IMG/VR virus record: IMGVR_UViG_3300025326_000042
Coordinates: 1-54,567 of that record
Direction: 5' to 3' (one strand)
Length of the DNA: 54,567 nt
Origin: a virus
Shown here: one piece after another, positions 1 to 17,979 of the stretch
How positions within the stretch are numbered: position 1 is the first letter of the stretch
Layout: each line of letters begins with the position of its first letter
Notes under the pieces: model-generated
Database searches by the model: none
What the model saw: the letters and a program-made list of their open reading frames with translations, nothing else
What the model was told of the DNA's origin: nothing
Made by a program: the position numbers and the translations under genes

Positions 1-497
1 TTATCCAGCAGGAGTGCGCCCGCGATGATCACTCGGCGCACCACAGCCTCATTCCAAAGGTACTCCTGTGCGGCATGAGTGTTCTGTGAAGATACGAGCT
101 TATGCGAGATGTTGAAGCTGCACATTCGCGCCATCTCATCGTTCGGAACAATGGTGCCCGCCGTCTCGACTTCCACCGGACACGGGTGCTCGGCGCGGTA
201 GAGGGTAAGAACTTCAGGCAAGGACGACTGCCAGAGCAGAGGCTCGCCGCCTGTGAGCACGACAGCGTGGCAGAGCCCGCCGCCGCCGGTGGTACGCAGC
301 ATCGCGTCGGCAAGCTGCTTGGGAGATTCGTAGACAAGATACTTTCCGAACGCAGGATCACTCTCGTTCCATGTAAACTTGCTGTCGCACCAGGCACACC
401 TCAGATTGCAACGATGCAGCCTGACGAAGAGCGACAGCCTGCCAAGATTCGGCCCCTCTCCCTGTGGAGCCAGATACATCTCGCTGACTTCAATCAC
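1..497 (-). CDS. queE: QueE, 7-carboxy-7-deazaguanine synthase (C-terminus cut by window edge)
   Basis: This is a radical SAM enzyme that converts 6-carboxytetrahydropterin to 7-carboxy-7-deazaguanine, the second dedicated step towards preQ0. The reading frame is open to the left window edge, giving about 165 residues. It shows the substrate-proximal APQGEG segment near residue 10, the Fe-S motif CNLRCAWC (Cx3Cx2C) near residue 30 and the SAM-binding LTGGEPLL motif near residue 80. The start is a GTG at 495-497 with AAGGAG seven bases upstream; an ATG at 477-479 is less well placed. The start overlaps the stop of the upstream zinc protein by 8 nt, so translation is probably coupled. QueD is encoded about 0.8 kb upstream in the same operon, and QueC and DpdA lie at 16-18 kb. 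The identification is firm; only the C-terminus is unseen. Confidence 0.93.
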   Translation of the reverse strand, partial: MIEVSEMYLAPQGEGPNLGRLSLFVRLHRCNLRCAWCDSKFTWNESDPAFGKYLVYESPKQLADAMLRTTGGGGLCHAVVLTGGEPLLWQSSLPEVLTLYRAEHPCPVEVETAGTIVPNDEMARMCSFNISHKLVSSQNTHAAQEYLWNEAVVRRVIIAGALLLD

Positions 498-702
498 CTC
501 CGCGCTCCTTCGCCAGCCCACGACACGCTCCACAAACAACCGCGCTTCTCTTCCTTCGAAGAAATGTTCGCACCTCATCAGCCATCGTAGTGAGTTCATA
601 GTGCCTATCAACGACAATGACTTCCACGTTGCCGTCCTCACCTACAGAAAAGATGTGGTTACATTCATCACATGTCCAATAGATTTCGCTAACCTCAATC
701 AT
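490..702 (-). CDS. Small four-cysteine zinc-binding protein (70 aa)
   Basis: The protein has two CxxC pairs, at residues 11/14 and 57/60, a plausible single zinc site, and an acidic middle. Its function is not recognised. I chose the ATG at 700-702 because it overlaps the upstream stop as ATGATTGA, the same arrangement as the GTGATTGA junction with queE downstream. Its first residues, MIEVSEIYW, closely match the QueE start VIEVSEMYL, at DNA level too, so the two translation-start regions appear related by duplication. Lying between a deoxyribosyltransferase-like gene and queE, it may belong to the deazaguanine module, but that is inferred from position alone. Confidence 0.75.
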   Translation of the reverse strand: MIEVSEIYWTCDECNHIFSVGEDGNVEVIVVDRHYELTTMADEVRTFLRRKRSAVVCGACRGLAKERGGD

Positions 703-1195
703 GTGATTTATCCCCCGTATAGAAGAACTGCTCTCCAACCTCTTCTGGACTAGGATGAGTCTGTTGTGGCATCGTGGCCTCCTTCGCTAGCACTGCCATA
801 CACTCCTCCAAAGTCTGAAAACGCCGAATCTCGCTCAGGCAGTGAAACGCATTCTCGATAGGGCCTATCACCCAGATGTCTTTACCCGTAGCGAGAGCGT
901 AGCCAAGCTCGACGTGTCTGCCCCCACGGCTGGACACTGTATGGGGCGTCTCACTGAAGCATATCACGAGGTCGGCATGATCGATGTCGGCCAAGTCTTC
1001 TCTGGCATAGCGTTCCCCAAGCTGCCTATACACCTCTCCATTCCCAAGCTCGTCATCCGAGATGATATGGCCCCCCTTGATCCAGCGAGAGGTGATAATG
1101 AAGTTGTTCGTTTTCAACCAAGCGGCGAAGGCAAGCAACATCTCTCTCTTCCGATATCTTCCATCTAGGTAGATTCTACGGTGTCCATTCGGCAT
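695..1195 (-). CDS. Nucleoside 2-deoxyribosyltransferase-like protein (166 aa)
   Basis: The fold signature is that of the nucleoside 2-deoxyribosyltransferase-like family: an N-terminal RIYLDGRYRKREM strand-loop, a central ADLVICFSE strand, then GRHVELGYALATGK with the Glu expected at the catalytic position, and VIGPIENAFH. Family members cleave or exchange the glycosidic bond of deoxynucleosides or hydrolyse modified nucleotides. The ATG at 1193-1195 is preferred over an upstream GTG because GGAGA sits about 7 nt before it. The gene lies between queD and queE, which makes a role in handling deazaguanine or guanine deoxynucleosides attractive, but this is inferred only from position. General nucleotide salvage is the alternative. 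Confidence 0.7.
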   Translation of the reverse strand: MPNGHRRIYLDGRYRKREMLLAFAAWLKTNNFIITSRWIKGGHIISDDELGNGEVYRQLGERYAREDLADIDHADLVICFSETPHTVSSRGGRHVELGYALATGKDIWVIGPIENAFHCLSEIRRFQTLEECMAVLAKEATMPQQTHPSPEEVGEQFFYTGDKSHD

Positions 1196-1235
1196 AGCAC
1201 TTCTCCGTCTCGTACAGCCGGACACGGCTCAGTAT

Positions 1236-2147
1236 TTAGGCTCCTCCTGCTCGTGCGCTCACCACCTTTCTTCCAAGGAGCCAAGCGCTTTTCTTCCGCG
1301 ATTTATCCCAACCGTATGCTTCCAGTAGAGCATCGGTGGAGATTTCAGACCAAGAAGTATCAGTCTCCTCGAAGCGAATGCGGTGGAGCCCCTTTAATCC
1401 AATGGACTCCAACCGAAACCAGCACCAAACAAGCATCTCCTCGGATGTTGGGTTAGGTAGAAAATCGTTTAGCAATTGATGATCCAAGGGCTCGACAACT
1501 GCGCTCTTGACACAGGCTTTGAGGTCGGCAAAGTCCATTACCACTCCATTAGGATCGAGGCGCCCTCGAACCTCGACATTCAGATGCCCCGTATGACCAT
1601 GAAGCCGCGCACATTTCCCCGGATGCCAGGGCAATATGTGAGCATACTCGAATGAGAAGCGCTTCCCAACTGTGACGAACGGCGCCTTCTTCTGCTTCGG
1701 GTGCTTTTTGCTCATGCCATAATGAAAGCGCCACATGTGACAAGGCACACAAACCCAAACCAGATTCGTCAGCAGATAATTGTCGTGGTTCTCATCAAGA
1801 TGATGAGCGTTGAGAACGGCACGGCTCCCACAGTACCGACATACCTTTTCTTCGTACTGCTCCAGGATCTCAGCATAGTGCGTCTTGCCCCAAGTCCATA
1901 ATGGATTCCTTTTCCCATATCTTCCAGACATCCCATTTATCCTGCTGTTGTAAGCACCCCGCTTCCATTGACGGCGTACTGCGGTGGCGATACGAAGCCG
2001 GACAGATGGACGCTGGGCTCCGTTTATTTTCTGGCCCAAACCGTTCTCATCTCTATTAGCCCATGCGGCGCGCATCTTTGCTGCTATATCAGCGCGCATT
2101 CTCGCGGCGACTTCTGGTGAATACGAGGATAGTGGTTTCCGTCCCAT
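1236..2147 (-). CDS. queD: HNH endonuclease domain fused to QueD (6-carboxytetrahydropterin synthase)
   Basis: One 303-residue frame joins two domains. Residues about 100-145 form an HNH nuclease: CxxC at 103/106, the HH pair at 115-116 and a second CxxC-H at 133-137. An N-terminal basic segment resembles the DNA-binding arms of phage homing HNH proteins. From about residue 145 the protein is QueD: zinc His170 in FSFEYAH, catalytic Cys179 and zinc His183/185 in CARLHGHTGH, and Glu/Asp/Thr in EETDTSW. QueD turns dihydroneopterin triphosphate into 6-carboxytetrahydropterin. The ATG at 2145-2147 has GGGAGG about 6 nt upstream. An internal Met just before the QueD part (1713-1715) lacks a Shine-Dalgarno, so the fusion is probably expressed as such. 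Confidence 0.9.
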   Translation of the reverse strand: MGRKPLSSYSPEVAARMRADIAAKMRAAWANRDENGLGQKINGAQRPSVRLRIATAVRRQWKRGAYNSRINGMSGRYGKRNPLWTWGKTHYAEILEQYEEKVCRYCGSRAVLNAHHLDENHDNYLLTNLVWVCVPCHMWRFHYGMSKKHPKQKKAPFVTVGKRFSFEYAHILPWHPGKCARLHGHTGHLNVEVRGRLDPNGVVMDFADLKACVKSAVVEPLDHQLLNDFLPNPTSEEMLVWCWFRLESIGLKGLHRIRFEETDTSWSEISTDALLEAYGWDKSRKKSAWLLGRKVVSARAGGA

Positions 2148-2210
2148 TCTAGCCTCCCCTATGATTCGGCAAGTGGTGTGCCGCCTCAAAACGATACGTC
2201 TTCCCTATTT

Positions 2211-2768
2211 TCACGCTAGTCCAAACTCCTCTCTTGCTGGTTCGTATGCCATTGCGGCCTCCTCCCCCTGCTGGACGTAAACACACCAAATTACTGCGTG
2301 AACGTCATACTGGATGCGTATCCATTCCAAGATGGAAAAGCGCCTTCCAACACCAATAAGGTACCTATGCTTGGCTCGCCAGTCAATGATGATGCCATCC
2401 TTGGCATCCTTATATAGCTCCCTATACTCTGGACTCCGAGACGCAACCCCTTCGGGGATGATACCTGCTAAAACAAGGGAGCCAGAATGCCTCTTTCCAT
2501 CACCGCGAGCCGAGTTACACTTCCGGTGGGCCAGCCTGAAGTTCTCCAATCGATCCGAACCTCCCATACTTCTTGGAACAATATGATCAACGCTAACATC
2601 ATCTACTGTTGAGAGATACTTACTACATAAAGAACAGATTGGCCCATCCACCTCTAGAAGGTGGGCAACGACAGCTTTCCAAGCAAAGATCCTCTTCTTC
2701 TTATCTTCACTAAGCTCTCCTAAGAGAGTGACGGTGACATCTCTAGATCGTCTATATGCTTTCTTCAT
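2211..2768 (-). CDS. HNH endonuclease (185 aa)
   Basis: The core is a McrA-type HNH: CSLC at residues 45-48, VDHIVPRSMGG with the catalytic His near residue 62, Asn near 76, then H and C of the second zinc pair near 81-84. The C-terminal 100 residues have no motif I recognise. The ATG at 2766-2768 is preferred over a TTG at 2819 because the likely promoter's -10 box lies at 2805-2810, which would leave the TTG untranscribed. It is the first gene of the leftmost transcription unit and sits directly before the HNH-QueD fusion. It may be a free-standing homing endonuclease; a host-DNA nuclease or packaging-associated HNH is less likely at this position. Confidence 0.85.
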   Translation of the reverse strand: MKKAYRRSRDVTVTLLGELSEDKKKRIFAWKAVVAHLLEVDGPICSLCSKYLSTVDDVSVDHIVPRSMGGSDRLENFRLAHRKCNSARGDGKRHSGSLVLAGIIPEGVASRSPEYRELYKDAKDGIIIDWRAKHRYLIGVGRRFSILEWIRIQYDVHAVIWCVYVQQGEEAAMAYEPAREEFGLA

Positions 2769-2804
2769 GGTCAAAACCCCCCAGACGGCCCGAGTCTCTC
2801 TCTC

Positions 2805-2833
2805 ATCATATATTCTCAATTAATTAATGTCAC
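2805..2833 (-). promoter_or_regulatory. Sigma70-type promoter for the HNH/que operon
   Basis: On the minus strand a GTGACA -35 (2828-2833) is followed by a 17-nt AT-rich spacer and a TATGAT -10 (2805-2810). Each box matches the consensus at five of six positions. The start site would fall near 2798, giving a leader of about 30 nt before the HNH gene. The -35 lies inside one arm of a 13-bp inverted repeat, suggesting an operator. Confidence 0.6.
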
Positions 2834-2888
2834 TCTGTCACTCTTAGAAGGGAGCTAGATAGGAGACAGGTCTGAGACAGAGTGACAT
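2827..2888. repeat. 13-bp inverted repeat overlapping the promoter
   Basis: ATGTCACTCTGTC at 2827-2839 is exactly complementary to GACAGAGTGACAT at 2876-2888, with 36 nt between the arms. It lies in the 106-nt gap between the primase stop and the HNH operon. The left arm contains the -35 hexamer. There is no T-run after either arm, so a regulator-binding site is more likely than a terminator. Confidence 0.65.
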
Positions 2889-2925
2889 CTTTGTCCCCAG
2901 TTATACAGCCTAATCCAGTGAGGCA

Positions 2926-5919
2926 CTAATGTACCTCACTGATATTTAGCAGCTTGAGTGGCATGGACACCAGCCTGATCTGTCTTTTGTGACGACCAAC
3001 CCGAAGTCGATGCTCGTAGGCGCCATAGCCATTCTTGGCTTCCTGCAAGACCGCACTCCATGAAAAAGTGACCTCTCTGCCCTGACGGCGCATCTCACGA
3101 TGATACCAACTGAAGGTCGTACTCTCGTTCAAATGCATGATGCGTCGAGTCTTCGTATCTTGTCGCTCATACTTGCCTCTAGACCACCAGCCGATGATCT
3201 CGGCGCGAGGAGAATCAGGCAATCGCGTTCTCGTCCCCGTGATGCCACGCAGCGGCATGAGTGATACTTTCCCCGCCTCGGCTTCGCTTGCGATGTAGTC
3301 GAGCATCTGCCTTAACGGAGCAAGACGCTTCACTTCTTCCCCTCGTTCCCTCGTGCCGGATACCAGACCACGAATGCCCGCTCGCATCCAGCGCCGCGCT
3401 TCGGCATACTGTTTCGGGTAGCACTCCTCCACGAACGCCAAGAACACATCACCCACCGCCGCCACTGTACTGACAGACGCCAGAAGCCTCCTGTGCATGT
3501 CATATCGTTCGGATGTTTCCAGCAGCTTTCGGTGCCAGCGCTCGCGCTTCTCCTCGACCTCGCGCTTCTCGAAGAGACTGTCCTGTCGAGCGAGCCAAGA
3601 GAGATAGTGTCCGCCGAGTAGCTGCATTGTTCCTGCATCAACAGCATCCTGCGCCACACGGAGTTTCTGGTCGTCGATGTCCCGGTCATGAATATCCAGG
3701 AATATCGTCCTGGCGACCATCGACGCCTCGCGCTCCCAGCGATCTTCTCCATTGCTGAGCATCACAGCTTGAAGCTCCAGGCTCTTGCGACGCTCCCCCG
3801 ACGACTTTAAGCGCTGACGCATCGACTTGTCAGCATAGGCCTGCACAAGCTCGCGCATCCCACGCTTGTCATACACGGCGCCCTCTTTATAGTCATCCAC
3901 CAACACCGTCATATCCTTCGCAGCGCTGAGCAAAGACCTGAGTGCGGACGGCGAGACGGATGTCCAGCTTGCAGTCGGGGGCGTCGTCTTGCGGAATGTC
4001 CCGAACAGCGACATCGCCGCGAGACAGAAACTCGTCTTCAAGACACCCGTTCTCCCCGTGATATGCAGCAGCGACGGCACCTCGTCCGCACCAGCAGACC
4101 AAACCGGCCCCATGAGCACCTGCAAGACTATTGGCACCGTGATGCCGAGCGGCCCACATTCGATGAGCGCTCGCAATGCTCCCCACGCCTGGCGCTTCTC
4201 TCCTTTCGATGCTGGCAGTCTGACGCCCCTGCCGTAAGGCTCGAATTCTTTTCGTGCGATCTCATCCTCGATCTCGGCAAGTTCGTCCATCCGCATCCTG
4301 AGATCAGTCTTCAGCCCCCTCCTCGTGATCGCGCCAAGTGCAGAGGGAAGCAGGTACACGCGCTCTTCTTCTCCAAGATCGTTCGTAATCGTCCACCACC
4401 CAGGCGTTGCTCGGATGCTGTAGCGTTGCACCTCATGCGGGTTCGTCAGTTCCAGGATAGCAGGCTTCAGGTGAACATGGCCATTATGCGAGACAATGTA
4501 GTCATGGGAGAGCTTGTGCGAGAGCGCCCGCTCAAGAGACCCCGTGCTGTCAAACTCGTCCGCTCGCAGTGAGACCTCGCGCACGTGGCCGGTCGCGGAT
4601 GTGATCTGGACACGCCAAACACGATCAGGCGTCGCACTCCCTTTATCAACCACGATCTCTGAGAGGAGCTTCACCATGAAGTTTGCGACTCGCGTTTGGG
4701 TAGTGGCCTTCTTGTGGTAGGTGACATGGTATAGCCTGCCAACCTCCTCATCCCAAAGATAGCTCGGTTGGTCGTCCACCACGTCCGCCGCCTTATCCGC
4801 GCCAGTCTTAGACACCAGATCAAGCTCATCCGGCGGCTCAGCGCCGTCTGGTGGCGGCTCTGGCCGCATATTCTCGGCGTCCAGCGCTCGTATGGCGGCT
4901 ATGTGGTAGCGCTTGTCCGCAGCAGAGCGGCTACGACGGCCACGCTCGACATCCGACTCAAACTTCCCATAATACACGCGGTCGAGCTTCTTGATGATGC
5001 CCGCGAGGATAAGGGAGTCCACCGAGGCGATATTGTACTGCTTCGCGGTACGCAATATTTGGCAGGCCGCGAAGTGCTCCCAGCCACTTAAGTCCTTCTC
5101 GGTATCTCGCACACCCTCTAGCCGCTCACCACGGAGCCTTCGCCTGATGTTCAGCAGATCATCAGCACGAGCGACCCGCTGTGAGATGTCATGGAGATCG
5201 TATTCTTCGATGGGTGTGTCCGGCAGGTTCTCGACATCGACATTGCGGGTCTCGACTGGCTCCACACCATGAGGCGCCAGCAAGCGCCTGACATACTTCA
5301 GCGCATCGGTCGTCTCTATAAGGTGTGGTATCCAGTCGCCCGCTTTCTGGCCGATCCACTTATAGAGCCTTCCAACCGGAGCAGCAGACGGAGGAGCGAT
5401 GACGTAAGAGCCTAGGCCTTGTATGCTGCCGATTTTGTGGCCGGTGACTTTATCTCTCAGATGCCTTGTGCGCTTATCGCCAGAGCATAGGAAGTACACA
5501 TGGACTCCGCGCCCAGTTCGCACGGCGCCTGTTTCATCTTGTAACACCGTCTCGGGAGCGAGGAGCGCAGCAGCGATCTCGGCGTCATCTACGTCGAGTG
5601 CCAGGAGATTCTTGTGGCCGAGCGCAATACCTATATTGGCAGTCTTCGGCCAGCGTGCTATCTCATCCAGATCGGTCGTCGCGCTCTGGACGCCATGCGG
5701 GCTGATCTTCGCAAGCGGATGCTTGCCAGGTGACAAACATCGACTATCGTCACACGAGCAGCCGGTAGGTGTGTTCGTATAGCAGGCTAGAACCGGCCAG
5801 CTCTGCGCGGCATACGCGAGTGCGGCTTCTCGAATACTAGAGCCGGAAGCGCGCCTTCTTCCTCTTCTTGGGTTTAGGCTCCGCTTCTTCGGTCTGGTCT
5901 GTGGGTTTGACATTGCCAT
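2926..5919 (-). CDS. Primase-polymerase/helicase fusion (997 aa)
   Basis: This replication protein joins an N-terminal archaeo-eukaryotic prim-pol domain to a C-terminal ATPase. Residues about 35-250 show the prim-pol signature: SPGKHPL, the SATTDLDEIARW helix, ANIGIALG, the catalytic LLALDVDD strand and TGRGVHVYF. The C-terminal half has Walker A GRTGVLKTS near residue 605, Walker B DMTVLVDD and an LSNGEDRWERE sensor-like strand, resembling DUF927/D5-type phage helicases. The start is ATG 5919 or ATG 5913, both behind GAGGAG; the first 83 nt overlap the preceding gene. It would unwind and prime the phage origin together with the nearby PolA, clamp and helicase. It is the last gene before the 2.8 kb promoter region. 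Confidence 0.88.
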   Translation of the reverse strand: MAMSNPQTRPKKRSLNPRRGRRRASGSSIREAALAYAAQSWPVLACYTNTPTGCSCDDSRCLSPGKHPLAKISPHGVQSATTDLDEIARWPKTANIGIALGHKNLLALDVDDAEIAAALLAPETVLQDETGAVRTGRGVHVYFLCSGDKRTRHLRDKVTGHKIGSIQGLGSYVIAPPSAAPVGRLYKWIGQKAGDWIPHLIETTDALKYVRRLLAPHGVEPVETRNVDVENLPDTPIEEYDLHDISQRVARADDLLNIRRRLRGERLEGVRDTEKDLSGWEHFAACQILRTAKQYNIASVDSLILAGIIKKLDRVYYGKFESDVERGRRSRSAADKRYHIAAIRALDAENMRPEPPPDGAEPPDELDLVSKTGADKAADVVDDQPSYLWDEEVGRLYHVTYHKKATTQTRVANFMVKLLSEIVVDKGSATPDRVWRVQITSATGHVREVSLRADEFDSTGSLERALSHKLSHDYIVSHNGHVHLKPAILELTNPHEVQRYSIRATPGWWTITNDLGEEERVYLLPSALGAITRRGLKTDLRMRMDELAEIEDEIARKEFEPYGRGVRLPASKGEKRQAWGALRALIECGPLGITVPIVLQVLMGPVWSAGADEVPSLLHITGRTGVLKTSFCLAAMSLFGTFRKTTPPTASWTSVSPSALRSLLSAAKDMTVLVDDYKEGAVYDKRGMRELVQAYADKSMRQRLKSSGERRKSLELQAVMLSNGEDRWEREASMVARTIFLDIHDRDIDDQKLRVAQDAVDAGTMQLLGGHYLSWLARQDSLFEKREVEEKRERWHRKLLETSERYDMHRRLLASVSTVAAVGDVFLAFVEECYPKQYAEARRWMRAGIRGLVSGTRERGEEVKRLAPLRQMLDYIASEAEAGKVSLMPLRGITGTRTRLPDSPRAEIIGWWSRGKYERQDTKTRRIMHLNESTTFSWYHREMRRQGREVTFSWSAVLQEAKNGYGAYEHRLRVGRHKRQIRLVSMPLKLLNISEVH

Positions 5920-9831: not shown

Positions 9832-9860
9832 TGTATACCACATCCTGATGATACTGTCAA
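9832..9860 (-). promoter_or_regulatory. Sigma70-type promoter upstream of the nuclease-Sak4 operon
   Basis: On the minus strand a perfect TTGACA -35 (9855-9860) is followed by a 17-nt spacer and TATACA -10 (9832-9837), with TG one base before the -10 (extended -10). The -35 includes the TGA stop codon of the DNA polymerase gene. It would drive the nuclease, Sak4-like, DUF669-like and later genes. Confidence 0.75.
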
Positions 9861-12800
9861 GTAGCCCAGCGCTTGCCGATTTGAATATCGGCGACGAGCG
9901 GGACGGGGAAATCTAGGCCCAAGCGATCCAACGGCGGGTGCTCCCAGGCTTCTCGCACGACACCCGAGACGACATCTCGCAACTGATAATCAAGGTGCAA
10001 AAGAGCAGCGTCGTGGAAGAAGCCTATATTCTCGACGACCTTGTGGACGCCTCTCCCAACGCCGTTACGGAGCAACTCCCAGGTGTAGTCCATGCAGAAG
10101 AGCGAGAGATCAGAGGCGGTCGCTTGCACCGGGAGATTAATGTACTTGCGCCATAGACCGTCCGGCCCTTCGCCGTCATCTCTGACGCTCCGCCGTCGTC
10201 CCAGTGGCGTCTCGCCATAGCCTCTCTGGACATCTCGCCAGAACGTCTCTTGCCAAGGCCGCACGTCGGGGTAGAATAAGTGATATGCGTCGTAGGCTGT
10301 CTGCGCCTGATCGTCGTCGAAGATGATCCCATAGTCTTGTCGCGCCGTCTTCTGGACGACAGTTGGCCCGCCTCCGAAGCCCAATCCGAAGTTGACGGGC
10401 TTTGCGCCGAATCGCTCCTGCGGCGTGACGCCCGCCATCCAACGATCCATGTCTCCTAAGTATCGTTCCAGCGTCCAGCCCTTGTTTAGCGCCTTGATGA
10501 GCCCGGCCATCGCGGTATGCAAGTCCTTCCCCTCTCGAAAGAACTCAAGCATCCTCCGCTCCCTAGCCAGCCATGCGATGATACGTAGCTCGATCTGGGA
10601 GTTGTGAGAGATTATGCCCTGTGCAAGAGCAAAGTTGTTACAGTCCTCGACCTCGATGCAGTATACAGGTTCCTTTCTCGCGGGAGTGATAGAGACAACC
10701 CTGTGATTCAGTCCCCGACTACGGACGTAGTTGTAGCAATCTGAGGAGCAATACTGTGGTAGCTTTCCACTAGCTTGGCTTGGGAAATAATATCGGAACC
10801 TTCGACACACGCGACAGCGAATCGTAACACCGGATCGTTTTCCCCATTGGGAGTTAGTGCGACCTTTACCATAGGCTGATCTCCGGTGGGACTGGGAAAT
10901 AGCTACGCCCATACGTCGGCGAAGACGCCTTCTAGCTGCGGGAGTCATGGTCGCCCAAAATTGCCTACTATGATAGGAGACATGCTGCGCTCTCGACAGC
11001 ACTTCGAGGTTGCTCGGTCGATTATCGTATCGATTATGATTGATGTGATGTACGAATTCGGTAGATGACAATTTTCTGCCTGACACTCCTTCAGCAACAA
11101 CTCGGTGTTCAGGAAATCGATCCTTAGAGGAATTCGTTCTGATTAGGGTATAGGCGCTCTTGTTGCGGATGAATGGCATCAACCTCGTACCTCGCACCAT
11201 CTCATCTACTCGTATGTAGGAGCCATCCATCTGTTGAAATCGATGTTCAGCAGTCGCTCGAACTTCCTCACCCGAACTCAAACGAATATTATAGGTTTGA
11301 CGAGAGCCAATGCTTTTGTGACTGCGGACCTTCCTCGCAACAGGCACTGAGCCAATAGTTCCGAAGACGAACGCACCAGGCTGGATATCCTTAATCGGTA
11401 CTAGTCCTTCGACTGTTTCGACTAACGTATCCCCACTTAGGCACTGATCGACGGAAAGTATGTGCCACCCAGGACGGGCACACACCAGGCGTCTAATGCT
11501 CTTGCTGCGAGGGAACTGCTGGAACGTGTAGCCCATCTCCGCTTCAGCGGACGATCTTCCTGTGCTGGCAGCAGTAAGCCGGTAGACACTATGGAGCCGT
11601 CTATCTCGCTGTGCTTTCAGAAGCCATCGCCACGGTCTGTAGTAGCTGTCTTCGCGCTTCCTGAGATGCCGACGCCGGATGATAGCCGGAACAATAGGGT
11701 GACTCCGTTTCTGTTGGAGCAGAACGTCGTTTGTGACGCTAGGCTTGTTCGTCTTCTTCGTCCTAGGCAGCTTTAGTCCCAGCTGTTCGAGGGAAGGAGC
11801 AAGTTTCTCGCCGCTACCGATAATCGCTTCGTAGCCGCCCGCCGGTAGCCTGAGCGCATCGCCTATCTTCTCAGTGAGATCACAAGTTCGCTCTAGCAGC
11901 CTGCGTTGCATCTCTCCCAGTAGATTCTCATCGACGGGCGTTCCACTTAGCGACGACCTCGCTAGTATCTTCGTAGCAGGCAAGAGTACGTGCTCGTAGA
12001 GAGGCAATACGCTCTCTCGGCCCTGTTCGCTCGCCATCGTAAGCAGCTTCTTCCTGAGAATCAGTGTGGCGATAGCGTCGTTCGCATTGCGCTTGAGCAG
12101 CCTGCGCCAGCCGTCTCTCGAAGACGGCATCGTCCCCGCGCCACTGCCTTTCTTCCAGCCTGCTTCCATCTCCGTCAGCGTGGATGCAAGAGCCTCCAGC
12201 GACAGTGAGCTATCGATGTTCAGGAGCGAAGCAAGCAGGTACGTATCGTCCGAGAGCTTGATCGGCCACTTCAGGTGATAAAGCCAGATTAGGTCTGCCA
12301 TTGCGTTATGGTAGACCGTAGGGACTGAGCGAATGATCTTGCGTACTTTGGGAGCGTACTCGCTTGTGAAGGGAATCGACAGAGCCACGAGCTTGTGATT
12401 TACCTCGCCTGCGATGGCAATGCTGACTTCCCTTGGCAGCTTGTCGTTGCGTCTCGACCAGGGCCACATGCCAGGCGGGTCTTTCTTCTGAGCAGGCAAA
12501 ACTTCCCACTCAAGGTCGCAGCCCAGGACATCGCAGCGAGCCAGGCGTCGGAGCGTTCGCTCGACAGATTCACCCGGGCTCAGCGACGTGACGATCTTCG
12601 TCTGCATGACAGACCCCGAAGCGATCTTCTGCGCGAGGCGCATATCTTCCATAATCGCTTTCGAGTACGCAGTGCGGGCTGCGGGATTATGTAAGTACGC
12701 CGCCGGGTGATAGGTTGCCAGGACAGGTATGCTCGAACGGTACTGTGGCAGCAGCGAGAGCATCTTGCCCCGGTTATCGCCTATCTTGCCGACGCCAGTA

Positions 12801-13174
12801 AGCGCTTTGAGCGCAGAGACACCCAAAGCGACGATGACTTTAGGCTTCACATGCGATATCTCGCGCACAGTATAGAACATGCAGGCGGATCGCTCGGCGT
12901 CGTTCGGGTCTCGGTTCCCTGGAGGCCTGCACCTCACGACATTCGAGACACGGACTCTCTTACGGGATAGACCGGCTTGCCTGAGCAGATCATCCAGCTC
13001 ATGTCCCGCGGGGCCTACGAACGGCTTATTCGCAGCGTCTTCGTCTGCTCCTGGTGCTTCGCCATAGACTAAAATCTCGGCGTCGTCGGGGCCGTCGGCG
13101 GGGACGCAGACACTCGTGGCTGCATGATGGAGGATGCAGCGTTGACATGAAGGGTCAAAGATACTTCTTGACAT
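9857..13174 (-). CDS. Uracil-DNA glycosylase/family A DNA polymerase fusion containing an intein (1,105 aa)
   Basis: Residues 1-188 are a family 4-type uracil-DNA glycosylase: GEAPGADED, KPFVGPAG, TYHPAAY, and four cysteines near 10, 13, 82 and 98 for a 4Fe-4S cluster. A 3'-5' exonuclease follows (CDLEWE Exo I, YHNAMADLIW Exo II). The polymerase has motif A SVDQ-SQIELR split by an intein, motif B RFGAKPVNFGLGFGGG and motif C HDAALL. The last has Ala where Pol I has Glu, and motif B ends in Phe where Tyr is usual. Removing the 281-residue intein leaves about 824 residues. The start ATG 13172-13174 overlaps the MT-A70 gene by 20 nt; an upstream in-frame start at 13240 is less likely. It is the replicative polymerase. 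Confidence 0.92.
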   Translation of the reverse strand: MSRSIFDPSCQRCILHHAATSVCVPADGPDDAEILVYGEAPGADEDAANKPFVGPAGHELDDLLRQAGLSRKRVRVSNVVRCRPPGNRDPNDAERSACMFYTVREISHVKPKVIVALGVSALKALTGVGKIGDNRGKMLSLLPQYRSSIPVLATYHPAAYLHNPAARTAYSKAIMEDMRLAQKIASGSVMQTKIVTSLSPGESVERTLRRLARCDVLGCDLEWEVLPAQKKDPPGMWPWSRRNDKLPREVSIAIAGEVNHKLVALSIPFTSEYAPKVRKIIRSVPTVYHNAMADLIWLYHLKWPIKLSDDTYLLASLLNIDSSLSLEALASTLTEMEAGWKKGSGAGTMPSSRDGWRRLLKRNANDAIATLILRKKLLTMASEQGRESVLPLYEHVLLPATKILARSSLSGTPVDENLLGEMQRRLLERTCDLTEKIGDALRLPAGGYEAIIGSGEKLAPSLEQLGLKLPRTKKTNKPSVTNDVLLQQKRSHPIVPAIIRRRHLRKREDSYYRPWRWLLKAQRDRRLHSVYRLTAASTGRSSAEAEMGYTFQQFPRSKSIRRLVCARPGWHILSVDQCLSGDTLVETVEGLVPIKDIQPGAFVFGTIGSVPVARKVRSHKSIGSRQTYNIRLSSGEEVRATAEHRFQQMDGSYIRVDEMVRGTRLMPFIRNKSAYTLIRTNSSKDRFPEHRVVAEGVSGRKLSSTEFVHHINHNRYDNRPSNLEVLSRAQHVSYHSRQFWATMTPAARRRLRRRMGVAISQSHRRSAYGKGRTNSQWGKRSGVTIRCRVCRRFRYYFPSQASGKLPQYCSSDCYNYVRSRGLNHRVVSITPARKEPVYCIEVEDCNNFALAQGIISHNSQIELRIIAWLARERRMLEFFREGKDLHTAMAGLIKALNKGWTLERYLGDMDRWMAGVTPQERFGAKPVNFGLGFGGGPTVVQKTARQDYGIIFDDDQAQTAYDAYHLFYPDVRPWQETFWRDVQRGYGETPLGRRRSVRDDGEGPDGLWRKYINLPVQATASDLSLFCMDYTWELLRNGVGRGVHKVVENIGFFHDAALLHLDYQLRDVVSGVVREAWEHPPLDRLGLDFPVPLVADIQIGKRWAT
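10601..11443 (-). mobile_element. Intein with HNH homing endonuclease in DNA polymerase motif A
   Basis: The 281-residue insertion begins with Cys (block A CLSGDTLV), has a TAEH block B, a YCIEVEDCNNFALAQ block F and ends ISHN. The +1 extein residue is Ser. Between the blocks lies an HNH endonuclease (FVHHINHNRYDNRPSNLEVL) plus a CxxC/CxxxC zinc cluster. Excision restores DQSQIELR, the catalytic motif A of family A polymerases. The boundaries 10601 and 11443 are exact from the translation. The element also looks more AT-rich than the flanking polymerase, consistent with horizontal acquisition. Confidence 0.93.
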
Positions 13175-13766
13175 CTCGTTCCAGCTCTCTATCCAGCTCT
13201 TTCGCTTCCAGCCCCCACGAGTCCCAGCCCTTACGAGCACGCCGAGCGAAGAGTTCGATGCGAGGTTCTTTAGACATAGCTTCGATGTCTTGATACGACT
13301 GCCGAGGTTTCCGCGAGTGTGGCAATCTATTAGGCGTGGTCAGCAGTGTGGACAGAATCGGGGGCTTAGGTCGATAAGGACGCCCACGAGTTGCTAAAAT
13401 AATATGCTCCGACTGTCCCCACAACCAAACGCCCATGCCGGTTCTAGGCTTGCACCATGTCCTCATAGTGCGCCACTGAAATCCCCAAGCGTCCAATACT
13501 TTAATAGCTTCAGGAAGCGTTGCGTTAGTCGTCCAGAGCCATAGCTGGCAATCAGATAAAGCAATCCTTTCGACTGGCAGGGCCGCAATATCCTTCGTTC
13601 GCATGGTGGAGTATGGTAGATAGATGCCTGTTCTCGGGTCACTATACGGTATCTCCATTCGATGATGAAAGAACCACGGCGGATCGGCAAGGATCGTTGC
13701 GTATCGACGCTTCGTGGTGTGGATGTCAACGACTGCCAAAGAACACTCGCGCCCTTCCTTTGTCAA
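13155..13766 (-). CDS. MT-A70 family adenine methyltransferase (203 aa)
   Basis: The ILADPPWFF strand carries the DPPW catalytic motif of MT-A70 N6-adenine methyltransferases. YSTMRTKDIAALPV, QLWLWTTNATLPEA and WGFQWRTMRTWCKP follow in the expected order, then the EHIILATRGRP strand. Length matches phage-encoded members. It probably methylates adenine in phage DNA. The annotated start is a TTG within the helicase gene; a TTG nine codons later has GGAAGG upstream, so the exact start is uncertain. The 3' end overlaps the polymerase gene by 20 nt. Confidence 0.9.
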   Translation of the reverse strand: MTKEGRECSLAVVDIHTTKRRYATILADPPWFFHHRMEIPYSDPRTGIYLPYSTMRTKDIAALPVERIALSDCQLWLWTTNATLPEAIKVLDAWGFQWRTMRTWCKPRTGMGVWLWGQSEHIILATRGRPYRPKPPILSTLLTTPNRLPHSRKPRQSYQDIEAMSKEPRIELFARRARKGWDSWGLEAKELDRELERDVKKYL

Positions 13767-16198: not shown

Positions 16199-17230
16199 CT
16201 AGATGGTATATGTTATAGGCAGCCGAGCAGGCTCATGGGGCGTAGCAACAGGATTAAGCAGAGCTTGCTTACGTTGAAAGAGCGCGATGGCGATCTCGAA
16301 CTTCGCTACGGCATTTGGGCCGGTCGTGTCAGGCGTGGCGAGGACTGCTGGATCGATACCAAGCTCTCGGGTAAATTGTTCAAGCCAAGCATGTCGGCTG
16401 TCGTAGCTGTTCTTCTTGTATCTCAGACCATAGTTGATGCCCGCGAAGATGCCATAGACGATGCCACTGATCCACGTCGAGCAATCGGCTGTATCAAAGG
16501 GTACTCTTCCAAGGACTTTCGTGCCTACTGCTAGTCCGTGGACGAGGCGGCCGTGTGTGTGAGCGTAGTCGCAGGCATATTTTAACTCACGGTTTCTGAG
16601 CTTCGCATCACTTCCGATAGCCAGGTACTTGTACTTAGCTACGAGAGTTTTCCAGTAGTCCCATGACATCCTAGCGGGATGCCAGACGACGATTAGTTTA
16701 GGCCCGCAGATTTCGTAAAGTTGCTCCGTCATCCTCTCCGCGACCATTAGACCAGAGACGACCTTGCCATCGCCGCGCTCGATATCCATCTGTTCGATAT
16801 CAAAGTTCAACGCAAAGTCCCACTCGTCCAGGTGGGCTTTTAAGTAATCACGGTACGCGATGAAGCGATCATGTATGATCGCCTGCGGCACGACAACACG
16901 CTTGCGCTCCTGTCGAAGAACTTGTACAGGCATCCTCTTCTTGAGTGTGGCGAGCCGCTGCTGTTTGGGCTGCGTGTTCGCGCTCACTCTTGATATGCCC
17001 GCTTGCCGCATCAATGTGAACACACCGCTGTCGAGATAACGGTACTGGGGCCAGTGGTCGAAGTGCTTGCGCTTCTCCCTCTCCCACCAGGAGCCTTTTC
17101 TGACCGACTCGTGTGATACCATGATCGCTTCTGCTTTGCGACGATAGAGTGCAACACTCCTCGCTCCAGGCAAAGTCCCAGCGAAGACGATCAGCCGCTT
17201 GGCGGGGAACGAATTGTCATCTGTCATCAC
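16199..17230 (-). CDS. dpdA: DpdA, DNA 7-deazaguanine transglycosylase (343 aa)
   Basis: The protein is a TGT-like transglycosylase of the DpdA group, which exchanges guanine in DNA for preQ0 or a related base. Seen motifs: YLDSGVFTL at residues 65-73 with the Asp matching the substrate-binding Asp of TGT, LNFDIEQMD at 141-149, a WHPARMSWDYW segment, HGLAVGT at 231-237 and DTADCSTW at 246-253, the last two being characteristic of phage DpdA. The start is GTG 17230 or the ATG three bases on; both overlap the queC stop. Association with queC, queD and queE argues for DNA rather than tRNA modification. It appears early in the replication operon, before the clamp. Confidence 0.88.
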   Translation of the reverse strand: MMTDDNSFPAKRLIVFAGTLPGARSVALYRRKAEAIMVSHESVRKGSWWEREKRKHFDHWPQYRYLDSGVFTLMRQAGISRVSANTQPKQQRLATLKKRMPVQVLRQERKRVVVPQAIIHDRFIAYRDYLKAHLDEWDFALNFDIEQMDIERGDGKVVSGLMVAERMTEQLYEICGPKLIVVWHPARMSWDYWKTLVAKYKYLAIGSDAKLRNRELKYACDYAHTHGRLVHGLAVGTKVLGRVPFDTADCSTWISGIVYGIFAGINYGLRYKKNSYDSRHAWLEQFTRELGIDPAVLATPDTTGPNAVAKFEIAIALFQRKQALLNPVATPHEPARLPITYTI

Positions 17231-17883
17231 GGGTCAATTAAGGCATTCTCTGCGAAGGCATTTTTTCGAGCGATGCATTCACGACAAGAGCCACAGGGGA
17301 TCTTTGTCGCGAAACATGACCTTGTAAACTGGAATGGCACGCCAATCGAGTCCCCCATTTTGACGATTTCTGCCTTGGACATCCATTGAAGAGGCGTTAA
17401 GAGTCTGAGTCTCCCCGATGTGCCAGTATAGACAGCAGCCGTCATTGCACCAACGAACTCGGGCTTACAATCGACGAAGGCGCCATTGTGCCAATTCCGA
17501 AGATGTATTCCTAGGTAGACTTCTTCCGCGCCAATAGACAATGCGAAATTAGCGCCCACTGAAATAAACACTGCATTCCTGAAGGGTACTATGATATCCT
17601 GATGATCTGAAGCGATTGCTTCCTGCTCCGTCTCGTACTGACGAGTCTGAATAGTACCCTCGACAAGTCCGCCAGAAAGGATACCTCTAAGTCCAAGCTC
17701 GTGATGCCTAGTTGCATAGTAGTGCGATATGTCCATCGCGCAGCCAAGCTCCCAGACGTTGCGCTGTCCATAACTAAATGTAAGCGTATGGATGGTAGCT
17801 TGTGGACTCTCTCTCGCTACCATGCCTAGCAGCACGGCTGAGTCAAGGCCCCCCGATAGTAAGACAACGGCGTGAGATGGCAT
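17227..17883 (-). CDS. queC: QueC, 7-cyano-7-deazaguanine (preQ0) synthase (218 aa)
   Basis: QueC makes preQ0 from 7-carboxy-7-deazaguanine, ATP and ammonia. The PP-loop SGGLDS is at residues 10-15, a FSYGQRNVWEL segment follows, VPFRNAVF and GIHLRNWHNGAF are present, and the zinc site has Cys at about 190, 197, 200 and 203 (SCFATKIPCGSCREC). The ATG at 17881-17883 with GGAGGAG eight bases before is clearly better than the upstream in-frame starts. The stop overlaps the dpdA start, so preQ0 supply and insertion are translationally linked. Confidence 0.96.
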   Translation of the reverse strand: MPSHAVVLLSGGLDSAVLLGMVARESPQATIHTLTFSYGQRNVWELGCAMDISHYYATRHHELGLRGILSGGLVEGTIQTRQYETEQEAIASDHQDIIVPFRNAVFISVGANFALSIGAEEVYLGIHLRNWHNGAFVDCKPEFVGAMTAAVYTGTSGRLRLLTPLQWMSKAEIVKMGDSIGVPFQFTRSCFATKIPCGSCRECIARKNAFAENALIDP

Positions 17884-17947
17884 TATGTAGGCTCCTCCTT
17901 CAGCAACCGCGTTTCTCTCCCCACCGAAGGCCAGCAACCCAGGCGAA

Positions 17948-17979
17948 GCGGAGCGCATCAGCGGCGGAGCGCATCAGCG
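17948..17979. repeat. Perfect 16-bp tandem duplication
   Basis: gcggagcgcatcagcg occurs twice without a spacer (17948-17963 and 17964-17979). The duplication contains the stop codon of the small 44-residue gene, so the copy downstream is non-coding. It looks like a recent slippage event in the queC leader. Confidence 0.9.

Follow-up and report, generated by a model that had tools for sequence, protein, structure and literature searches.

We found, in a 54,567-base virus record (hereafter the window), a gene that joins an HNH endonuclease domain and a complete QueD in a single protein. Judging from sequence comparisons, we consider it probable, at roughly three chances in four, that this fusion is a mobile gene of the homing type, which has queD as its target and carries a substitute QueD along with it. 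The sequence-only reading of this DNA had raised the idea of a homing endonuclease captured by queD. This idea is now well supported and can be sharpened, since the fused QueDs form one clade, the fetched fusion loci range from 28% to 71% in G+C, and a severed queD was recognised at seven sites.

The HNH-QueD fusion gene

The fusion gene lies on the minus strand (1236..2147) and encodes 303 amino acids, from an ATG at 2147, preceded by the SD sequence GGAGG, to a TAA stop codon at 1238-1236. Translation of the window gave one uninterrupted frame with no internal stop. Together with the match to PF01242 and residue conservation in 18 of 18 distinct fusions, this bore out the earlier proposal that a complete HNH domain stands N-terminal to a complete QueD in one frame. 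An assembly artefact at about 1713-1760, named in the sequence-only reading as a possible refutation, was ruled out because collinear fusions are present on 18 other contigs.

The QueD domain occupies residues 157-270 (1338..1679, minus strand), with the codon of the catalytic Cys179 at 1613-1611. PF01242 matched residues 160-270 with E=5.1e-27 and 94.7 bits, against a cut-off of 22.4, and Foldseek aligned this part with 2oba and 4ntk (Pseudomonas and E. coli QueD) at E values of about 1e-10. The score for TIGR03367, the NCBIfam QueD equivalog, was 85.2 bits for the window, just below the cut-off of 89.25, and 90.9 bits, above it, for the related locus L131. Residues H170, C179, H183, H185, D222, H223 and E261 were invariant in 18/18 distinct fusions, and we take their zinc-binding and catalytic roles (H170, H183 and H185 as the three zinc His, C179 as the catalytic Cys, then the Asp-His pair and the Glu) to be those of their counterparts in E. 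coli QueD. The invariance of these seven residues agrees with the earlier statement that the QueD half retains all of its zinc and catalytic residues. We presume this half to be active as an enzyme.

The HNH core spans residues 103-142 (1722..1841, minus strand) and follows the pattern CxxC...HHxD...N...NL...CxxCH... In the window fusion, PF01844 reached 12.6 bits (E=0.16), where its cut-off is 21.4. Three relatives, L147, L142 and L134, passed the cut-off with 24.6-25.3 bits and six of the nine relatives scanned fell below it, which makes three of ten fusions when the window is included. The HNH motif with its zinc Cys pairs was found in all 18 distinct fusions: C103, C106, H115, H116, D118, N123, N128, C133, C136 and H137 were invariant, and the last HNH histidine, H142, was kept in at least 90%. 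Identities between members in the HNH core fall as low as 25%, yet these HNH residues do not vary. An AF2 model of the HNH part had a pLDDT of 75.8, and Foldseek returned weak matches only, none at E<=0.001. The top one was Legionella DotN (E=0.08), which is not known to us as a nuclease, followed by the Gme HNH nicking enzyme (E=0.79). We presume the HNH half to be a working nuclease.

Ahead of the core lies a helical segment (residues 11-75, 1923..2117, minus strand) with conserved N42, W61, Y66, R69 and G72. It gave no profile match, and we presume that it resembles the NUMOD3-type DNA-binding repeats of homing endonucleases. Fronts vary between members of the group: several relatives carry HTH-like or zinc-finger-like stretches, recognised by eye or through Pfam matches that all lie below curated cut-offs, and the HTH-like and ROS/MucR-like fronts likewise rest on Pfam matches that are every one below the curated cut-off. 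At the other end, the C-terminal tail (residues 271-303, 1239..1337, minus strand) was modelled mostly with low confidence, pLDDT being <50 over residues 280-303, and a tail clearly like that of the window was seen, by eye, in L009/L146 only. The L142 fusion (3824-5122, on a contig shared with L090 and L105) continues for about 120 further residues at its C-terminus, among which a P-loop-like stretch was recognised, also by eye.

Further genes of the pathway are present in the window. QueE (7-carboxy-7-deazaguanine synthase; 1..620, minus strand) is cut by the window edge, with an open frame from about 620, and matched TIGR03963 with E=2.3e-19; its 70 bits do not reach the cut-off set for whole proteins, which a fragment would not be expected to do. 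QueC is encoded at 17227..17958 on the minus strand (PF06508, E=1.5e-47). A transglycosylase-like protein (16199..17230, minus strand) matched phrog_887, 'queuine tRNA-ribosyltransferase', with E=6.1e-11 and had no Pfam or NCBIfam match; we read it as the probable DpdA of this pathway. No FolE was detected in the window. Across the 19 fusion contigs, many of which may be fragments, phrog_887 and FolE were each found on 15; 14 had QueC, in one case with a match below its cut-off.

Relatives of the fusion and severed queD pieces beside it

The sequence-only reading had proposed a search for other proteins with the same domain order. Such proteins were found on 18 further contigs, 17 viral and one from an archaeal metagenome-assembled genome (Nanoarchaeia), and a DpdA-type phrog_887 match is present on 15 of the 19 contigs that include the window. 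These 19 contigs hold 18 distinct fusions, as L138 and L139 share the same ORF and were counted once. Among the best 80 of 285 loci in a QueD alignment scan, a single one, L009, carried an HNH motif in frame with QueD; its fusion is 60% identical to that of the window. Scans with the HNH part gave the others. Two of these scans had 12 of 14 loci translated (L089 being the L009 contig and L101 left out) and 12 of 22. In a larger scan, 28 of 61 loci were translated, giving 17 fusions and 11 loci that are not fusions, and a further scan with five of six loci translated (L195 left out) gave one fusion. Single-protein scans of viral contigs returned no close relative of the window, and the first genome-contig scan returned no relative.

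PF01242 scored above its cut-off on all 19 contigs, and on 16 of them the fused copy was the sole match. The L135 contig also encodes, several kb away from the fusion, another PTPS-like protein of divergent sequence (L199, 1036-1779). In the archaeal genome, whose fusion is L192, the frame L198 (1487-1711, on a different contig, C5) matched PF01242 over profile positions 2-38 only and resembles the stub type of L147 described below.

A tree of QueD domains (89 rows, 18 of them fused, over as few as 124 columns) placed the fused QueDs together in one group, supported at 93/86 and recovered in 94% of 200 bootstrap trees. Pairwise identities of the HNH half and of the C-terminal part of QueD (QueD-C) agreed (Mantel r=0.715, p=0.0002), which indicates that the two halves travel together. 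The 23-residue N-terminal part (QueD-N) gave r=0.554 with QueD-C and r=0.226 (p=0.068) with HNH.

Directly upstream of the window fusion lies a queD 5' stub (2214-2149, minus strand), made of a GTG start, 20 codons that read like QueD, another codon and a TAG, and cut off just before the catalytic-Cys codon. Against a QueD N-terminal profile, its iE was 4.8e-7 among 2,592 fragments and it ranked second of 3,940 peptides; against the full QueD profile, E was 0.0033 among 27,443. A tblastn search of phages with its 21 residues gave no match. The GTG start overlaps by 4 nt (GTGA) the stop of a separate HNH endonuclease gene located just upstream (2211..2819, minus strand; PF01844, E=8.8e-10). Immediately after the fusion stop and in frame with it, there is a queD 3' remnant of 19 codons plus a stop (1235-1176, minus strand). 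It was the top hit of 3,446 peptides for a QueD C-terminal profile (26.5 bits, E=7.7e-7; next 7.3 bits) and had E=1.5 with the full profile. The sequence-only reading had mentioned neither of these two pieces.

Stubs of this kind were found at 7/18 distinct loci, namely the window, L147, L142, L132, L134, L138 and L140, and none was found at the other 11 in the stretch checked. They sit 1-26 nt from the fusion start or, for L132, in frame with the fusion. All seven differ in sequence, and their ends, placed by eye except for that of L134, which is set by a repeat, fall 21-27 nt past the zinc-His codon. The ends thus spread over no more than 6 nt near the codon of the catalytic Cys, which the L140 stub still retains. 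Of the 3,940 upstream peptides (147 test, 3,793 control) scored with the N-terminal profile, the six best all came from the 18 fusion loci, with 9.7-31.5 bits versus 6.6 for the best peptide of 502 control ORFs, for a profile whose sequences were partly picked by their N-terminal motif and which thus favours that type. On their own, the L134 (E=0.053) and L132 (E=0.15) stubs are weak, and the seventh, at L142/L105, was recognised by eye. In further tblastn searches, the L105 stub matched four records, two of them Lactobacillus phages, with E values of 0.4-5, which we took as chance because annotated genes run on the other strand in the record inspected; the L103 stub matched three records (E 0.02, 0.7 and 2), all at spots already found as QueD.

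We considered that a stub might be a copy of the N-terminus of its own fused gene and rejected this, as the fused QueD was no closer to the stub than many others. For five of the seven stubs, the non-fused QueDs that came at least as close as the fused one made up more than half of the 71 compared; the numbers for L142 and L138 were 17/71 and 20/71.

L134 differs in having a complete resident queD just downstream of the fusion. The first 66 nt of this gene, from the start codon to the insertion point, are repeated upstream as the stub, with 98% identity, in a direct repeat (3747-3812 and 4924-4989). The repeat starts exactly at the queD start codon, a boundary that simple duplication does not explain. 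At the position of the catalytic Cys, the resident QueD has an Ala, the residue being Cys in 88/88 non-fused rows and in 18/18 fused ones. We found no empty-site allele of L134 in close relatives, one search returning only its own contig and a second one nothing. L134 looks like an early stage of queD replacement. The loci can be arranged as a series, with the resident gene kept (L134), two remnants left (the window), a stub only (five loci) or nothing (eleven loci), although the order of these stages is our own reconstruction.

A probable homing-type element and its alternatives

The seven stub ends within 6 nt point to recurrent insertion at one conserved queD site. Following the logic of cleavage-site work on the WHO elements of yeasts, as far as described in PMC7282813, a boundary shared by the stubs would mark where the HNH half breaks queD. 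By this analogy, queD would be the target of the HNH and the common stub end its cut site. In the mechanism that we propose, the HNH half, with its variable front, would cut the resident queD around the catalytic-Cys codons. Repair would then leave the 5' end of the resident gene as a stub directly upstream and install the HNH-QueD gene, the stub possibly acting as one recombination arm and the QueD half as the other. The complete QueD half would take over the enzymatic role, and because the fusion supplies it, the pathway would survive and the resident copy would be free to decay. Several observations stand against the homing reading: PF01844 matches the window fusion only weakly, DotN is the top structural match, 11/18 loci have no stub in the stretch checked, the empty-site allele of a close relative, searched for L134, was not found, and the L134 repeat has its boundary right at the start codon.

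A different view is that HNH and QueD fused a single time, that the nuclease is now irrelevant, and that resident queDs were replaced through ordinary phage recombination that left remnants. Such a static relic would agree with the fused QueDs being one group with co-inherited halves, and with the lack of a stub at 11/18 distinct loci. Nevertheless, a spread of just 6 nt among seven stub ends speaks for site specificity, and the HNH residues have stayed invariant though core identities fall to 25%. We therefore regard this view as rather unlikely.

The sequence-only reading had also offered a functional fusion, in which the HNH nuclease acts on unmodified DNA, from the host or from a rival phage, and is joined to the enzyme that makes the base. 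Both halves are conserved in 18/18 distinct fusions, the pathway genes counted above are found on most contigs, and the weaker Foldseek matches of the HNH part include the modification-dependent enzymes EcoKMcrA (E=1.8) and ScoMcrA (E=3.2), neither being significant. These observations would suit a functional fusion. However, it leaves unexplained the severed queD pieces that end at one place, and it would give the nuclease no evident DNA targeting because QueD works on a small molecule. No modification-reading domain appeared among the sequence-family matches of the fusions scanned, and this coupling of DNA cutting to base synthesis found no direct support; we judge it quite unlikely.

Alternatively, QueD might also be made alone from an internal start, so that one frame would yield two proteins. 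The window does have internal ATGs 19 and 12 residues ahead of the QueD start, and three of the 18 members (L135, L136 and L143) show an SD-like stretch near an internal start. On the other hand, no start codon near the QueD part of the window has an SD of at least 4 nt, such an SD is absent from the internal starts in 15/18 members, and 16/18 have one at the gene start. The earlier remark that no recognisable ribosome-binding site precedes QueD is thus upheld, and separate translation of QueD appears very improbable.

Conserved active-site codons are a usual place for introns and inteins. An intein or a group I intron that separates the stub from the 3' part of queD and is spliced out would fit the stub ending at such a codon, but this is scarcely credible, since Rfam had no match at E<=1 in window positions 1-4000, against a group I/II intron, the fusion protein had no match to intein families at E<=1, and splicing would duplicate the QueD N-terminus that the fused gene already has complete.

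The DNA polymerase of the same window does hold an intein. This polymerase A (9857-13240, minus strand) has an N-terminal uracil-DNA glycosylase domain, and its intein holds an HNH_3 domain. By eye, we also noticed a QueE-like protein split by a segment that looks like an intein and has an HNH motif (L164, 601-2250), and ThyX-like proteins split in the same manner in L149, L150 and L160. An HNH-thymidylate synthase in vir335, considered as a parallel to the fusion, was rejected, as it reads by eye as a ThyX intein.

Relation to known systems and implications

The closest precedents for the homing-type reading are the WHO elements of Torulaspora and Lachancea yeasts, as presented in PMC7282813. 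These home without splicing and target a conserved metabolic gene, FBA1. They carry a resistant replacement piece of their target, and the host gene end is duplicated at two loci, so that the gene is not disrupted. Leftover target fragments all come from one end, many starting at about the cut site, and cleavage has been shown for Who6. HNH-QueD likewise has target fragments with a shared boundary, as a mirror image (5' fragments), the boundary being the presumed cut site. The WHO nuclease is intein-like with a zinc finger, is encoded by a separate downstream gene and replaces the 3' end, whereas the fusion is viral, uses an HNH, leaves 5' fragments and carries a complete enzyme in frame. Discordant evolution of the target gene on the two sides of the cut, as expected of a WHO element, was not seen here. 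A strict mirror image of the WHO mechanism would predict that the QueD C-terminus often derives from the recipient; this was not supported, as the C-terminus tracks the HNH half and not the recipient (r=0.715), and it speaks against a strictly WHO-like mechanism. As judged from sequence, HNH-QueD would work like a WHO element but is not one, because its nuclease is an HNH, its fragments are 5' and its nuclease and replacement enzyme form one chain.

Other systems share single features with the fusion. Mobile ORFs (mORFs) of fungal mitochondria form gene hybrids of atp6, atp9, cox2 and nad3, and as in HNH-QueD an endonuclease ORF brings a foreign, divergent target piece that restores the target gene. 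They differ in the portion of PMC3630166 available by bringing C-terminal pieces, by their LAGLIDADG or GIY-YIG nucleases, by their mitochondrial location and by having no fusion of nuclease and complete enzyme. That an HNH can sit in a phage modification gene with no splicing detected is already known from the ShiLan domain, a hidden HNH in a phage DNA methylase; unlike the fusion, it is an out-of-frame ORF inside the host gene without a replacement enzyme, as far as the accessible text of PMC11855218 goes. In PhiPA3, the phage HNH homing endonuclease gp210 is likewise known to attack a gene of another phage during co-infection; it differs in being intron-encoded, with no enzyme domain mentioned in the accessible part of PMC11620839. 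Phage QueD itself (6-carboxytetrahydropterin synthase) has the same catalytic domain, residues and pathway neighbours as the fusion, and the available text of PMC6884629 contains neither 'endonuclease' nor 'fusion', its one 'fused' passage concerning Gat-QueC. We found no description of an HNH-QueD fusion in the literature searched, a search that most subscription journals lie outside of.

Home-and-rescue drives exist as engineered systems (PMC7968924, in the part available). We tentatively suggest, as a possibility of less than even odds, that HNH-QueD is a one-protein weapon of the home-and-rescue type: in co-infection the HNH half would destroy the queD of a rival phage and with it the rival's capacity to produce its protective 7-deazaguanine DNA base, and the QueD half would protect the carrier and the converted genomes. 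If this were true, genomes not yet converted would be disarmed, and the element would thereby drive its way through phage populations.

The homing-type reading yields a testable prediction of the cleavage site. If it is right, HNH-QueD would be a splicing-free phage homing element that combines in one polypeptide a nuclease and a replacement of the target enzyme, aimed at the active-site codons of a DNA-protection gene. The WHO/mORF principle of eukaryotic genomes would then reach into viruses as well, and engineered home-and-rescue drives would have a parallel in nature.
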